Below, in pieces: positions 22,161 to 25,800 of a stretch of DNA of 34,107 nt (its first letter is position 1; the number at the start of each line of letters is the position of its first letter). Under the pieces are notes generated by a model. That model was not told the DNA's origin. It ran no database searches and worked only from the letters and a program-made list of their open reading frames with translations. Location of the stretch: contig CAMLIK010000019.1 of the NCBI GenBank assembly GCA_946480175.1, positions 1-34,107 on the forward strand, read 5' to 3'. The DNA is from an uncultured Gilliamella sp. (lineage in GTDB: Bacteria > Pseudomonadota > Gammaproteobacteria > Enterobacterales > Orbaceae). The translations under genes were made by a program, and so were the position numbers.

Positions 22161-22248
22161 ATAGTACACAACCTATACAGCAGTGAACGCATTTTTAATT
22201 TTTGATATTCGTTATCACTCTTTTTAAATTGCTTACACAGAAGTGAAC
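22161..22248 (-). CRISPR. Decayed type I-F mini-array 1 (two repeats, one 32-nt spacer)
   Basis: Repeats at 22161-22188 and 22221-22248 are 28 nt each, separated by exactly 32 nt, the geometry of type I-F arrays. Against the best repeat in this window (23719-23746) they match at 20 and 23 of 28 positions. Read on the minus strand they begin GTTCACT. The array lies downstream of a secreted-protein gene on the same strand. A third, poorer candidate is at 22280-22306. No cas gene is in the window. Confidence 0.75.
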
Positions 22249-22279
22249 TAAGTAATCAAAAAATAGAAGCTTTAACGTT

Positions 22280-22306
22280 TTTCTAAACACTAACAGATCA
22301 GTTAAT
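22280..22306 (-). repeat. Possible third degenerate I-F repeat of mini-array 1
   Basis: Lies 31 nt beyond the second repeat. Plus-strand TTTCTAAAC is identical to one end of the repeat, and CAGTTAA near the other end differs from CAGTGAA by one base; about 19 of 27 positions match with one gap. It overlaps the stop codon of the 22298-22987 gene. Confidence 0.4.
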
Positions 22307-22987
22307 ATATCTATCTGAATACCATTTTTTTCCTACTAATATCCAGATTTCGTTAAAAAGAGTTTTATTTTCAAATAGATCATCTATCGTTTTATATTTA
22401 TTTAGTTGATTTGGTTTTTCTGCATCAAATTGCGATAATCCAAGGTAGACTGCTTCATAATAATTTTTAGGATGATCATCTTCTTTTAATTCATTTATAT
22501 CATTCATTGTTTTTTCTAAAAACATTTGTAGATAAACATCTGTTTTTAGACAGTTTTTTAAAATGGGAAACTTAGCATTATTTAGAGTTCCAGCACATAT
22601 TAAATTAAGTTCATCGCCCTTATTAATATTTAGCAAATCATCTTTTTGATGCATTTCTAAAGATACATATTCAAATTTATTTTCCCCATTTGCTATAACA
22701 TATTTCTTCCCAAAAAAATCGGTCTTTATTCCGGATGCTACAGCTTTAATGTTAATTATTCGTTTGTGATATGTTTTTTTATATATGTTCGGATTGTTGA
22801 TATATTCATTGATTAATTGTGATGCATTCACTACATCTACATAATAAGTTATCATATTATTACCTCCGTTTTTAAATTCAGAGATATCTTTTCTTAAATA
22901 CTGCTCTGTAATTCTTTTTGCATTATCATTGGCAAATGAATTAAAACCAATCAAAGTTAATATAGTAAAAGCAATTATTTTTTTCAC
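22298..22987 (-). CDS. Exported OB-fold-like hypothetical protein
   Basis: 229 aa, starting at a GTG (22987). The N-terminal KKIIAFTILTLIGFNSFA is a clear signal peptide with cleavage before ND, so it is periplasmic or surface located; there is no lipobox Cys. Residues ~75-145 read like the OB-fold 'tRNA_anti-like' domain of small exported proteins: AVASGIKTDFFGKKYV, GDELNLICAGTLNNAKFPIL, then KNC; its two Cys could form a disulfide. The C-terminal third is acidic and helical. Function is unknown. It is very AT-rich, and its stop codon overlaps a possible CRISPR repeat remnant, as if the gene and array arrived together or recombined. The downstream mini-array is on the same strand. Confidence 0.6.
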   Translation of the reverse strand: MKKIIAFTILTLIGFNSFANDNAKRITEQYLRKDISEFKNGGNNMITYYVDVVNASQLINEYINNPNIYKKTYHKRIINIKAVASGIKTDFFGKKYVIANGENKFEYVSLEMHQKDDLLNINKGDELNLICAGTLNNAKFPILKNCLKTDVYLQMFLEKTMNDINELKEDDHPKNYYEAVYLGLSQFDAEKPNQLNKYKTIDDLFENKTLFNEIWILVGKKWYSDRYIN

Positions 22988-23071
22988 GTTCCATTTCCAT
23001 TAAATATAAAAAAACAACAATAGAACCATTGTGTTATAAACTGTTCAATTCCATTCATCACCGCAACCAGA

Positions 23072-23095
23072 CAAAAAACTCAATAGAGGTTTTTA
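23072..23095 (-). terminator. Weak terminator of the 147-aa secreted protein gene
   Basis: On the minus strand AAAACCTC, TATT, GAGTTTTTT: a short imperfect stem ending in six T residues, about 26 nt past the stop codon. Confidence 0.35.
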
Positions 23096-23120
23096 GAATT
23101 TTGACTATTTTAATGATTAG

Positions 23121-23564
23121 TTATTCTTCGACGCGGTCACAAGTCAACACCATTTTGATTTTTTTGATTGGGTTATTTTTTTTATCAATGGTTGTGTATA
23201 TATTTGTCATAACAAAAGTGTCTTCGGATAGATATTCAATCTTCTGCGATATTTGCTTATCATCGACAACATACTCAGGTCTTTTGTAAATATCTTCAAG
23301 ATCAAAAGGAAGCAGAGCATTTTCTTCATCATCCTCTCCCCAAAAAAGTTGTCCATTTCGTTTGGTAATAAAATAATCATATTCAGAGATCGTAGTGTCA
23401 CCAAAATCTTGGAGCTTTCCTTTATCTAATACTGCTTCTTGCTGGCTCTGCTCGCACTCCCATTCACCTATTAGCATTTCCTCAGTTACTTTTTCTTCCT
23501 TAGCGATCGAATTAAATGAAATAAAAGCTAAAACAAACGTCATATAACATAAAATCTTTTTCAT
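23121..23564 (-). CDS. Small exported hypothetical protein
   Basis: 147 aa. The first ~21 residues (KKILCYMTFVLAFISFNSIA, then KEEK) form a signal peptide. The mature part is acidic and begins EEMLIGEWECEQ, a pattern seen in small lipocalin-like or beta-rich periplasmic proteins. It has one Cys near the start and one near the end (LTCDRVEE), suggesting a disulfide. AAGGAGA lies 4 nt before the ATG. I do not recognise the family. It lies 133 nt upstream of another exported protein on the same strand, within the accessory island; the two may be an expressed pair, but nothing shows a joint function. Confidence 0.6.
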   Translation of the reverse strand: MKKILCYMTFVLAFISFNSIAKEEKVTEEMLIGEWECEQSQQEAVLDKGKLQDFGDTTISEYDYFITKRNGQLFWGEDDEENALLPFDLEDIYKRPEYVVDDKQISQKIEYLSEDTFVMTNIYTTIDKKNNPIKKIKMVLTCDRVEE

Positions 23565-23611
23565 AAAATCTCCTTTTTTAGGTAATATTATGTTATAAAA
23601 AGATTTTTTTC

Positions 23612-23638
23612 AATAAAAAACCACCACAAGGGTGGTTT
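23612..23638 (-). terminator. Terminator at the distal end of mini-array 2
   Basis: AAACCACC (23618-23625) pairs with GGTGGTTT (23631-23638) over a 5-nt loop. On the minus strand it is followed by six T residues; on the plus strand there is no T-run. No protein gene reads leftward into it, but mini-array 2 does, ending 20 nt earlier. Confidence 0.75.
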
Positions 23639-23658
23639 AAAGGGATATTGATTTTGAG

Positions 23659-23746
23659 TTTTATAGCTACTTACACAGCATTAAACATTGAGAAACTGCA
23701 TAAATACCCCCATTTCTATTTCTAAACTGCCTACACGGCAGTGAAC
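23659..23746 (-). CRISPR. Type I-F mini-array 2 (two repeats, one 32-nt spacer)
   Basis: Repeat 23719-23746 is near canonical for type I-F: on the minus strand it reads GTTCACTGCCGTGTAGGCAG and then TTTAGAAA, with the CTGCC/GGCAG hairpin intact. Repeat 23659-23686 matches it at 19 of 28 positions, and the gap is exactly 32 nt. In the decayed copy the loop-closing C-G pair has become T-A, which keeps pairing. A candidate promoter (23804-23831) and terminator (23612-23638) frame it on the minus strand, so a ~185-nt RNA is likely. It is divergent from the toxin-antitoxin pair. No cas gene is near. Confidence 0.85.
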
Positions 23747-23823
23747 CTTTTGTGTTGCTTTCCCCATGATTTAACTCTTTCCTTAACATCATCTAATGCA
23801 TTCATTATACTTTTCGAAAACAT
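23731..23823 (-). CDS. Possible 30-codon leader ORF ending inside the CRISPR repeat
   Basis: Minus-strand ATG at 23823 to a TAG at 23731-23733 that lies within the near-canonical CRISPR repeat. The peptide is basic and helix-like: it includes NALDDVKERVKSWGKQHK and ends RFTAV, the last four residues being dictated by the repeat itself. There is no Shine-Dalgarno, and the candidate array promoter overlaps the ORF's start, so it may be a chance ORF or the remnant of a gene end. Confidence 0.25.
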   Translation of the reverse strand: MFSKSIMNALDDVKERVKSWGKQHKRFTAV

Positions 23824-23831
23824 GAAGTAAA
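23804..23831 (-). promoter_or_regulatory. Candidate promoter of mini-array 2
   Basis: Minus-strand -35 TTTACT (23826-23831), 16-nt spacer, perfect -10 TATAAT (23804-23809). The expected start near 23797 is about 50 nt before the first repeat, like a short array leader. Confidence 0.5.
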
Positions 23832-23900
23832 AAAAATTTTTATCTTTTTTAATAAAAAAATTAATTTTGATATTTTTATCGTTTTTGATAAAGGATATTG

Positions 23901-23928
23901 TTGACGTTTTTATTAAATTTGATACAAT
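23901..23928 (+). promoter_or_regulatory. Promoter of the toxin-antitoxin pair
   Basis: -35 TTGACG (23901-23906), 16-nt spacer, -10 TACAAT (23923-23928), about 30 nt before the toxin ATG. It is back to back with the candidate promoter of mini-array 2, about 70 bp away. Confidence 0.65.
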
Positions 23929-23957
23929 TATAAAAAATAATAAAAGGGACTGATTAA

Positions 23958-24278
23958 ATGTTTACGATAAAAATGCATGATGCCGCAAAAGCCGAGATTT
24001 TGGAGTTGCCATCAGAGCTTAAAGGTCAAACAATTAAGTTGATTGAAAAACTCAGAAATTTTGGTCAACTAAAAATGCCAGACAGTCGCTCGCTAAAAAA
24101 TGGATTATTTGAATTGCGATCATCTGAGCGCAATAACATAGCTAGAACTATTTATGTATACCAAAAATCGAGAACAATTTTTATTTTACATGCGTTTATT
24201 AAAAAAACGGAAAAGACACCTGTTAACTCATTGACAATAGCACGAAAAAGATTAAGGGAGATGTTAGAAAATGAATAA
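23958..24278 (+). CDS. HigB/RelE-like toxin (phage Gp49-like family)
   Basis: A 106 aa putative mRNA interferase. The Gp49-like pattern is clear: GLFELRSSERNNIARTIYVY, then TIFILHAFIKKTEKTP and SLTIARKRLREM, with basic residues in the positions that contact RNA in RelE-fold toxins. The start has AGGGA about 9 nt upstream. Its 3' end overlaps the antitoxin by 8 nt, in the toxin-first order of HigBA systems. It lies between two CRISPR-repeat loci on the opposite strand. Activity is inferred from the family. Confidence 0.88.
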   Translation: MFTIKMHDAAKAEILELPSELKGQTIKLIEKLRNFGQLKMPDSRSLKNGLFELRSSERNNIARTIYVYQKSRTIFILHAFIKKTEKTPVNSLTIARKRLREMLENE

Positions 24279-24558
24279 AAAACACAGTACAACATTCGAA
24301 GAATTGAAAGAACTCGCACTGGCTGACCCAGTTGCGAGGGATGCGTATGACAGAGCTGAGGAAGAGTGGCAGCTTCGCGAGGTGTTACTATCAGCGAGGG
24401 AGAAAGCAAAACTCACTCAAACAGAGCTAGCCCATCGTTTAGGCGTTGCTCCGTCCAATATAAATAGAATTGAGAGAACACCGCTAAATTCAAATATAAA
24501 AACAATTTCCAAATATTTACATGCGTGTAATGCAAAATTTGAAATCAGATTAATGTAG
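24271..24558 (+). CDS. HigA-like HTH antitoxin
   Basis: A 95 aa XRE-type protein. After an acidic/helical N-terminal part (FEELKELALADPVARDAYD) that probably wraps the toxin, residues ~40-80 form the HTH: AREKAKLTQTELAHRLGVAP, then SNINRIERT. It ends in FEIRLM, typical of antitoxins paired with Gp49-like toxins. Its ATG lies within the toxin gene's last codons, so the two are translationally coupled. It likely represses the shared promoter at 23901-23928. Confidence 0.88.
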   Translation: MNKKHSTTFEELKELALADPVARDAYDRAEEEWQLREVLLSAREKAKLTQTELAHRLGVAPSNINRIERTPLNSNIKTISKYLHACNAKFEIRLM

Positions 24559-24570
24559 TAATTTCAAAAT

Positions 24571-24597
24571 AAAGTGGGCTGTTCACCCACTTTTTCT
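24571..24597 (+). terminator. Terminator of the toxin-antitoxin operon
   Basis: AAGTGGG, a 7-nt loop and CCCACTT followed by T residues on the plus strand, 12 nt past the antitoxin stop. On the minus strand it also ends in a T-rich stretch, so it could stop RNA coming leftward from the single CRISPR repeat. Confidence 0.75.
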
Positions 24598-24622
24598 ATT
24601 TTTATTTACTATTTTAACTATA

Positions 24623-24650
24623 TTTCTAAACTACCTACACGGCATTAAAC
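24623..24650 (-). repeat. Solitary type I-F CRISPR repeat
   Basis: 28 nt, identical at 25 of 28 positions to the near-canonical repeat at 23719-23746. It shares the GTTTAATGC variant end with the decayed repeat 23659-23686. No partner repeat is found one 60-nt unit to either side. It lies 64 nt past the antitoxin stop, on the opposite strand. Confidence 0.75.
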
Positions 24651-24663
24651 TAGAACAAAACAT

Positions 24664-24691
24664 ACTATAAACATTGTTTGCTAAAAGGCAA
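24664..24691 (-). promoter_or_regulatory. Candidate promoter reading into the solitary repeat
   Basis: Minus-strand -35 TTGCCT (24686-24691), 16-nt spacer, -10 TATAGT (24664-24669). Transcription would start about 7 nt before the repeat and could end at the hairpin at 24571-24597, giving an RNA of roughly 85 nt. Confidence 0.4.
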
Positions 24692-24711
24692 AGGGCAATT
24701 TTGATTTTAAA

Positions 24712-24783
24712 AACCCTTTTTTTAAGCTAATTATTAATGCCATGATTTTTATTGATTTTATTTTAAGCTAAAAAAAAGGGTTA
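24712..24783. repeat. 17-bp inverted repeat in the gap before rlmF
   Basis: AACCC-T7-AAGCT on the left and, inverted, AACCC-T8-AGCT on the right, 16 of 17 matching. It lies between the solitary CRISPR repeat and the 3' end of rlmF. Runs of T and a matching GGG/CCC suggest a large weak stem, possibly an rlmF terminator or a relic of mobile DNA. Confidence 0.4.
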
Positions 24784-24837
24784 GCGATGATGGATTTTGA
24801 TTTTTAAAAAAACTACTTCTCACTAATTTTTTGGACT

Positions 24838-25800
24838 TCAAAAAGTGCCTTGCTCAACTCTTTGAATCTGCATTTTTCGCTCTTTTGGATCGAAAAACGT
24901 CCATGCGACAAAACGACTCAATTTTTGACCTTGTGCCATTGAGACAATTATGTATTCAGTTACGGCTACATTTTTCAGTTGTTTTTTTATATTACTCAGC
25001 GATTCTTTTTTTGATACTAATGAGGAAAACCATAGGCATTGCTCTTTATATTTGATACTCTCTGTTATCATCCGATCAATAAATGCACTTTCGCCCCCTT
25101 TGCACCAAAGTTCGGCATGTTGTCCACCAAAATTAAGGATAACTTTATTCTTAGTAGAGTTCACTTTACCTAGCTTTTGTAGTTTGGTGTAAGCCGTAGC
25201 ATGGGCTTCTTGTTCAGATCGATGGAAAGGTGGATTGCATACGCTAGCTAGATAAAACTCGTTGGGCTGAATGATATTTTCAAAAATAGCTTCGCTGTTA
25301 AGTTGTAAGCGACATTGTAGGGTATTTTTTAATAGATCATTGGATTTGGCTATTAACGAAGCAACTTTGATGGATGTAGGATTAATATCACTCCCCACAA
25401 AAGACCAACCATACTCGGCACAACCAATAATCGGATAAATAATATTCGCGCCAACACCAATATCTAATATGCGAACTCGCTTACCGATAGGCGTCTGATT
25501 TTGATTATCTTGCGCCAAGAGATCTGCCAAATAGTGAATATAATCTGCGCGTCCCGGAATTGGCGGGCAGAGATAATTGTCAGGAATATCCCAATACGAG
25601 AGTTGATAATAGTGCAATAAGAGTGCTTTGTTGAGTGTTTTAATCGCAATAGGATCAGCAAAATCAATCGTCACCCGACCAAATTGATTAGGTTTAACAA
25701 AATTTGCTAGCTCGGGTAATGTTTTGATAAGTAAATCAAATGGATAACCATTAATATGTTTATTGCGGGGATGTAAAACGGTTTTTTTGATTGATTGCAT
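24838..25800 (-). CDS. rlmF: 23S rRNA (adenine-1618-N6)-methyltransferase
   Basis: Methylates A1618 of 23S rRNA. It has 320 aa (E. coli RlmF/YbiN 308). Seen: VLHPRNKHINGYPF at the N terminus, YWDIPDNYLCPPIPGRADYI, SAM-binding motif I ILDIGVGANIIYP, motif IV NPPFHRSEQEA (the N6-adenine methyltransferase NPPF), LNFGGQHAELWCKGGESAF and MAQGQKLSRFVAWTFF. All align with E. coli RlmF. It is a core gene, yet it lies inside the segment bracketed by the 25-bp direct repeats. The Shine-Dalgarno is weak; the start is fixed by similarity of the N terminus. Confidence 0.95.
   Translation of the reverse strand: MQSIKKTVLHPRNKHINGYPFDLLIKTLPELANFVKPNQFGRVTIDFADPIAIKTLNKALLLHYYQLSYWDIPDNYLCPPIPGRADYIHYLADLLAQDNQNQTPIGKRVRILDIGVGANIIYPIIGCAEYGWSFVGSDINPTSIKVASLIAKSNDLLKNTLQCRLQLNSEAIFENIIQPNEFYLASVCNPPFHRSEQEAHATAYTKLQKLGKVNSTKNKVILNFGGQHAELWCKGGESAFIDRMITESIKYKEQCLWFSSLVSKKESLSNIKKQLKNVAVTEYIIVSMAQGQKLSRFVAWTFFDPKERKMQIQRVEQGTF

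Follow-up and report, generated by a model that had tools for sequence, protein, structure and literature searches.

A HigBA toxin-antitoxin pair inside a decaying orphan type I-F CRISPR array of Gilliamella

Introduction

Several described systems resemble the locus analyzed here. Orphan type I-F arrays have I-F repeats, 32-nt spacers, a leader, and a degenerate terminal repeat, with the cas operon elsewhere in the genome; our locus has all of these, but it holds protein-coding genes between its repeats and has few spacers left. Type II HigBA pairs, made of a Gp49 toxin and an HTH antitoxin, are toxin-first operons with overlapping genes and repeated operator-like motifs, as is the pair found here, except that the latter lies inside a CRISPR array. 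In the available text of a report on Acinetobacter (PMC10097628), the I-F CreTA module sits in the cas3-csy1 gap and contains a mini-CRISPR of two I-F repeats and a spacer beside a toxin gene. Our locus shares the mini-CRISPR and the neighboring toxin gene but differs in three respects: its spacer lacks a PAM-flanked match in the toxin promoter, its toxin has a protein antitoxin, and it is located outside the cas3-csy1 gap. Toxin-antitoxin cassettes stabilize the Vibrio superintegron, according to the accessible part of a second report (PMC11551772), where such pairs lie in a repeat-bounded array with other accessory genes, as they do here; our repeats are instead CRISPR repeats. Finally, the solitary repeat units that act as RNA anti-CRISPRs, as presented in the portion available of a third report (PMC10651486), consist of a single I-F repeat beside accessory genes, whereas the lone repeat at our locus is not isolated: it opens an array on the chromosome. 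The available parts of the open-licence papers searched, including those on Gilliamella CRISPR, contain no account of toxin-antitoxin genes between CRISPR repeats.

The DNA under study, hereafter the window, is a stretch of 34,107 nucleotides that makes up the entire contig C19 of a 2.54-Mb, 173-contig, 86%-complete assembly (G000). It belongs to Gilliamella, a bee-gut symbiont, and its rlmF gene is 94% identical to those of Gilliamella apicola ESL0177 and of an uncultured Gilliamella MAG.

Results and Discussion

A single array of five repeats beside rlmF

Positions 22161–24650 form a single orphan CRISPR array of type I-F, located next to rlmF on the chromosome, a structure that is well supported. 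The array is built by a leader, five repeats, two 32-nt spacers, and two gene-bearing inserts. In the array direction, the first repeat is followed by the higBA insert, a repeat, spacer 1, a degenerate repeat, insert 2, a second degenerate repeat, spacer 2, and the terminal repeat:

24838–25800, minus strand: rlmF, the flanking gene that defines the site
24651–24837, minus strand: intergenic stretch with the CRISPR leader, from the rlmF stop to the first repeat
24623–24650, minus strand: first (leader-proximal) repeat, GTTTAA type, 3 mismatches
23747–24622, no strand assigned: insert 1 with higBA, between repeats, 876 nt
23719–23746, minus strand: canonical I-F repeat, GTTCAC type, stem intact
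23687–23718, minus strand: spacer 1, exactly 32 nt
23659–23686, minus strand: degenerate repeat, GTTTAA type, 9 of 28 positions mismatched, in the 60-nt register
23618–23638, minus strand: terminator-like hairpin, 20 nt beyond the degenerate repeat
22249–23658, minus strand: insert 2, between repeats, 1,410 nt
22221–22248, minus strand: degenerate repeat, 5 mismatches
22189–22220, minus strand: spacer 2, 32 nt
22161–22188, minus strand: terminal repeat of the array, terminal type, 8 mismatches; homology to two relatives (G034 and G014) restarts exactly here

This layout confirms the coordinates of the two-repeat array with an exact 32-nt spacer and of the lone repeat, all on the minus strand, given in a preliminary description of the locus. 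The repeats on both sides of the toxin-antitoxin pair, also reported there, are present and are explained by the pair sitting inside one larger array.

The canonical repeat matches the Rfam family CRISPR-DR4 (43.1 bits, E 6e-7). The repeats are not a product of chance because their pattern is present in 25 of 35 Gilliamella genomes, against 0 of 35 for a reversed control pattern. Two repeat pairs (23719–23746 with 23659–23686, and 22221–22248 with 22161–22188) keep the 60-nt register, which the two inserts break, and each insert is bordered by a GTTTAA-type repeat on the leader side and a GTTCAC-type repeat on the far side. When the five repeats were folded, only the stem of 23719–23746 clearly surpassed shuffled sequences (z -3.3, compared with -1.6 for the first repeat), and the hairpin of the degenerate repeat at 23659–23686 was no better than shuffles. 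With a clear stem in one repeat of the five, at most one good crRNA is likely to be made. A minus-strand promoter-like site (23804–23831) and the terminator-like hairpin at 23618–23638 bracket the two-repeat mini-array, which may be a transcription unit of its own. With the idea in mind that each insert is a second array stripped of its leader, 23747–23957 was read by eye and showed no leader-like sequence.

The same site in relatives, and cas genes in trans

We found 25 rlmF loci in the 35 genomes, and three of them have repeats within 1.5 kb: those of the window, G034, and G014, the last two being the closest relatives of the window. The other 22 show no repeat at up to 7 mismatches within 1.5 kb, two of them (L026 and L027) being truncated where the contig ends, 350 bases or less from rlmF. 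Both relatives carry clean arrays at this site, consisting of 17 identical repeats plus a terminal repeat in G034, and of one repeat, one spacer, and a terminal repeat in G014. Homology to these two genomes covers rlmF and the leader as far as base 24623 (91%), stops, and restarts at 22188/22189 (96–97%). The breaks define 22189–24622 as the content of the array, and 24623–24650 and 22161–22188 as its first and terminal repeats. The leader with the first repeat (24623–24790) is 95–96% identical beside rlmF in both relatives; inserts 1 and 2 are missing from both arrays. The 18 spacers of the sister arrays are all unlike spacers 1 and 2, with at best 13 of 32 positions shared with the former and 11 of 32 with the latter. 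The idea of a decaying CRISPR locus, put forward in the preliminary description, is therefore borne out: the window holds the remnant of a degenerating array at a site where relatives have clean ones.

The same source described the repeats as lacking cas genes, which is true locally but not for the genome. Contig C4 encodes a complete I-F operon, with Cas1, Cas2-3, Csy1, Csy2, Csy3, and Csy4 each above the Pfam cut-off and uninterrupted, and it also has its own CRISPR array. The array beside rlmF is thus an orphan that could be served in trans by the C4 operon.

The HigBA pair

Insert 1 carries a toxin-antitoxin pair transcribed opposite to the array:

23836–23930, plus strand: putative higBA operator/promoter, with repeated TTTTTATC...GATAAA-like motifs (direct repeats)
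23958–24278, plus strand: higB, toxin gene, 106 aa, intact (Pfam Gp49, E 1.4e-22)
24271–24558, plus strand: higA, HTH antitoxin gene, 95 aa, intact, overlapping higB (HTH_3, E 5.8e-10)
24571–24593, plus strand: terminator-like hairpin after higA

The two reading frames are intact, and I-F repeats do bracket a type II pair, as first reported. From its sequence features, higBA resembles a type II toxin-antitoxin unit that is complete in itself, in which the HTH protein, by analogy with its family, would neutralize the toxin and repress the operon through the operator. The closest HigBA loci, in G023 and G018, encode HigB proteins that are 72–75% identical; homology spans 23836/23841 to 24542 and includes the TTTTTATC/GATAAA motifs, and these homologues have no repeats nearby. 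NCBIfam returned no toxin match for HigB and antitoxin matches only below the cut-off; among solved structures, HigB had no match at E 0.01 and HigA had weak matches to HipB-type proteins and CylR2. A search of defense families matched HigB to part of NsnC (E 7e-12) and two HTH antitoxins to HTH-type models, with no match for the other seven proteins.

Six other HigB loci were found in five genomes, two of the six having internal stops. None has a canonical-type repeat (up to 8 mismatches to the canonical repeat) within 1.5 kb. Conversely, repeats occur in 25 of the 35 genomes, most of which lack this HigB. A link between the repeats and higBA had been proposed at the outset, together with the statement that independent occurrence in related genomes, and no RNA from either repeat locus, would speak against it; of these two, independent occurrence is seen in the genomes compared.

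Gene-carrying arrays across the genus

Insert 2 contains two genes whose relatives also lie in or near other arrays:

23121–23564, minus strand: 147-aa protein with a signal-like start, of a family that recurs beside arrays and in prophage arrays
22298–22987, minus strand: 229-aa tRNA_anti-like protein, with a homologue inside the prophage array on contig C17 of the same genome

The 147-aa family is uncharacterized, has a signal- or lipoprotein-like start and a KVT-E-L-G-W-C core, and is found in and beside CRISPR arrays (the window gene; L093:5170–5631; L188:1618–2061; L189:1672–2139). The two members scanned have no Pfam match.

To place these inserts in context, leaders were sought throughout the genus. 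The leader query matches at E 0.01 in at least 28 of the 35 genomes, some of the matches being weak or repeat-only, and at least 138 leader-like places lie in 24 genomes among the matches listed. Many leader-bearing I-F-like arrays are seen per genome, and contig C1 of G026 (L066–L072) has tandem runs about 1 kb apart. We followed 140 leader hits that are distinct by sequence, which are most of those listed (exceptions include G012:C34, G017:C124, G017:C65, G007:C74:71759, G018:C16, G006:C25, G019:C92, and G031:C9). Two or more repeats follow 122 of them, and the 18 with a single repeat may not be arrays. Behind six of the 140, one of them doubtful, the array has gaps the size of a gene between repeats of the same orientation, and 134 show no insert:

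Window: higBA in the counted insert
G000, contig C17: tRNA_anti-like gene and a TacA-GNAT pair
G015: ParE-HTH pair
G014: 153-aa relative of the 147-aa protein
G017: 312-aa protein with no Pfam match
G026 (L072), doubtful: insert of 483 nt, leader hit partial

The scan used a gap limit of 2.7 kb and admitted out-of-register repeats with up to 7 mismatches, settings under which the script caught only the first of the two inserts of the window. Tandem arrays with their own leaders were excluded from the insert count by design (in G026, and at L074 in G015, where a 456-aa gene lies between arrays). The three toxin-antitoxin pairs (Gp49, TacA-GNAT, and ParE, from two genomes) all run opposite to their array, and the tRNA_anti-like, 147/153-aa, and 312-aa genes run with it. 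In G014, a Gp49-HTH pair (L079:2135–2748) is located outside the array, 286 nt past its last repeat and on the same strand.

The proximity of these families to leaders was compared with uniform placement, a null that ignores the clustering of such genes in prophages and intergenic regions. For the 147-aa family, 5 of 52 genes, including that of the window, lie within 1.5 kb of the 138 leader places used, against 0.24 expected (52 of 54 family rows were used, two short fragments being dropped, and shorter partial leader hits were omitted). For the tRNA_anti-like family, 3 of 11, again including the window gene, lie within 3 kb of a listed leader, against 0.10. At the same distance, the counts are 2 of 21 for Gp49 (0.18 expected, P 0.014), 1 of 9 for TacA (0.08, P 0.076), and 1 of 13 for ParE (0.11, P 0.11); these toxin counts are small and include the window case and the G014 pair just outside its array.

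Arrays in prophages

The C17 array (L012) is located between the tail-terminator and baseplate-assembly genes of a prophage, with holin and endolysin genes nearby (PHROGs); we take this prophage to be P2-like from its gene order. Scanning IMG/VR recovered the same repeats in four viral contigs, in six stretches altogether. One of these, L191, lacks the inserts and has, at the site of the C17 array, an array of two repeats, likewise between tail-terminator and baseplate-assembly genes. It is the only prophage counterpart compared; the stretch that leads outward from the first repeat is 93.6% identical, but in the far flank collinearity with C17 is lacking where the flank adjoins the array. In L188 and L189, a member of the 147-aa family lies beside an array. 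L189 and L193 share several kb with L012, and L188 is near the tape-measure gene of another phage type.

How the inserts may have arrived

We consider it likely that the orphan array beside rlmF gained its inserts by repeat recombination and then decayed, and that CRISPR RNA does not regulate higBA. Inserts would arrive when CRISPR repeats in separate arrays undergo homologous recombination with one another, with donors that may include prophage-borne arrays holding the same accessory gene families; the array would decay after their arrival. higBA would then be a passenger, and retention of the array through killing after loss by repeat recombination a possible side effect. The GTTTAA repeats on the leader side of the inserts and the GTTCAC repeats on the far side are as chimeric arrays would leave them, although the sister arrays likewise end in a terminal repeat of the GTTCAC type, which weakens this argument for the repeat ending at 22248. 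Two further points count against the passenger route: repeats are absent from the 1.5 kb around each of the six other HigB loci, and the Gp49 pair of G014 lies outside its array. The genomes compared yielded no allele that has these spacers but lacks higBA, and the insertion event itself is unseen.

Rather than a passenger, higBA could be an addiction module: loss of the array by repeat recombination would remove the pair and kill or stall the cell, as in the Vibrio superintegron. We regard this as unlikely, though worth weighing. Three toxin-antitoxin pairs from three Pfam families lie between repeats in two genomes, all opposite to the array, and of 43 toxin or antitoxin genes of these families, 4 have a listed leader no more than 3 kb away, against a summed expectation of 0.37, a background that assumes uniform placement for four cases that include the window's own and the one just outside the G014 array. 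The absence of inserts behind 134 of the 140 followed leader hits argues against this reading, as does the near loss of the present array despite higBA. A broader proposal, to which we attach a similarly low weight, is that the many dispersed, leader-bearing I-F arrays of Gilliamella, chromosomal and prophage-borne alike, are shared docking sites for accessory genes and toxin-antitoxin pairs that move by repeat recombination, and that embedded pairs penalize array loss in an integron-like manner. If arrays exchange genes in addition to spacers, CRISPR loci would also be a route by which prophage accessory genes and toxin-antitoxin pairs enter fixed chromosomal sites, and the embedded pairs could hinder the loss of arrays. 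Interest lies above all in the other gene-carrying arrays of the genus.

It is very improbable that Cas1 and Cas2-3 captured long DNA as giant spacers, in which case the adaptation machinery would be used in an integron-like way. Like spacers, the inserts have a repeat at either end, and higBA lies directly behind the first repeat, the entry point of new spacers. Yet the other inserts, the doubtful one in G026 apart, are found deeper in their arrays, behind repeats 3 to 20, the flanking repeats differ and are not fresh duplicates, and a capture of 0.7–2 kb is far outside the known length of spacers.

No sign of a spacer 1 target at the higB promoter

The preliminary description had also suggested that CRISPR-like RNA might help to control the toxin. 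In a CreTA-like arrangement, a guide from the mini-array would act with the Csy complex to repress transcription from the higBA promoter, so that RNA control comes on top of the protein antitoxin. Its attraction lies in the two repeats and 32-nt spacer divergently upstream of the toxin, in the cas genes elsewhere in the genome, and in the promoter-like site (23831–23804) and terminator-like hairpin (23638–23618) around the mini-array. Promoter-like sites are, however, no commoner than in shuffled sequence (17 versus 15.4). Against positions 23747–24000, the best CC-flanked site matches spacer 1 at 5 of 14 seed-side positions, a score equalled by 936 of 1000 shuffled spacers; when the PAM was not required, the best was 8 of 14, equalled by 989 of 1000. 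Two further scans of the higB promoter agree in finding no CC-flanked match to spacer 1.

The same test does find matches elsewhere. Mini-CRISPRs in the cas3-csy1 gap served as a control in all four loci that have both genes (a fifth, in G016, is cut within cas3). Their spacers match 13, 14, 11, and 13 of 14 positions in G000, G015, G014, and G005, respectively, at sites 56–99 nt past the mini-CRISPR repeat that are flanked by CC in three genomes and by CT in G015. With CC required, none of 1000 shuffles reaches the score in G000, G014, or G005, and the best CC site in G015 is 8 of 14 (260 of 1000); without the PAM requirement, 3, 0, 47, and 1 of 1000 shuffles do so in G000, G015, G014, and G005. 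Tested against the wrong cas3-csy1 gaps, these spacers match 6–11 of 14 positions.

On three negative scans, set against matches in four of four control loci, we reject CreTA control of higB, which has become highly improbable. The locus also has an intact HTH antitoxin gene and what appears to be a conserved operator region of its own, and the other HigB loci have no repeats nearby. Repeats beside a toxin are thus not enough to call a CreTA, as is illustrated by this negative result, for which Gilliamella itself supplied the positive control. That the lone repeat or mini-array is an RNA anti-CRISPR delivered by a prophage is just as hard to credit: a prophage-encoded I-F solitary repeat does act in this way in the accessible text of PMC10651486, and related arrays reside in prophages related to one in this genome, but the lone repeat stands first in a chromosomal array with a leader, and both close relatives have that array in clean form.

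Other matches of the spacers are weak. Spacer 1 matches a site on contig C15 at 18 of 19 positions (E 0.07), preceded by TT and not CC, which we take as chance. Among phage sequences, the best match of spacer 1 has E 0.9 among the matches listed, and that of spacer 2 has E 0.3 among the best 8 of 193 records.

The control loci are themselves of note. In the cas3-csy1 gap on contig C4 of G000 (L011:6106–6400), and also in L086, L126, and L145, a mini-CRISPR carries a psi-spacer that matches a nearby site. The mini-CRISPRs differ in sequence and retain the match between spacer and target, and, judged from these matches, they look like CreA/CreR-type regulators of the csy operon. A conserved open reading frame of about 111 aa (44–53% identical) lies between cas3 and csy1 in all four of these Gilliamella I-F loci with both genes.
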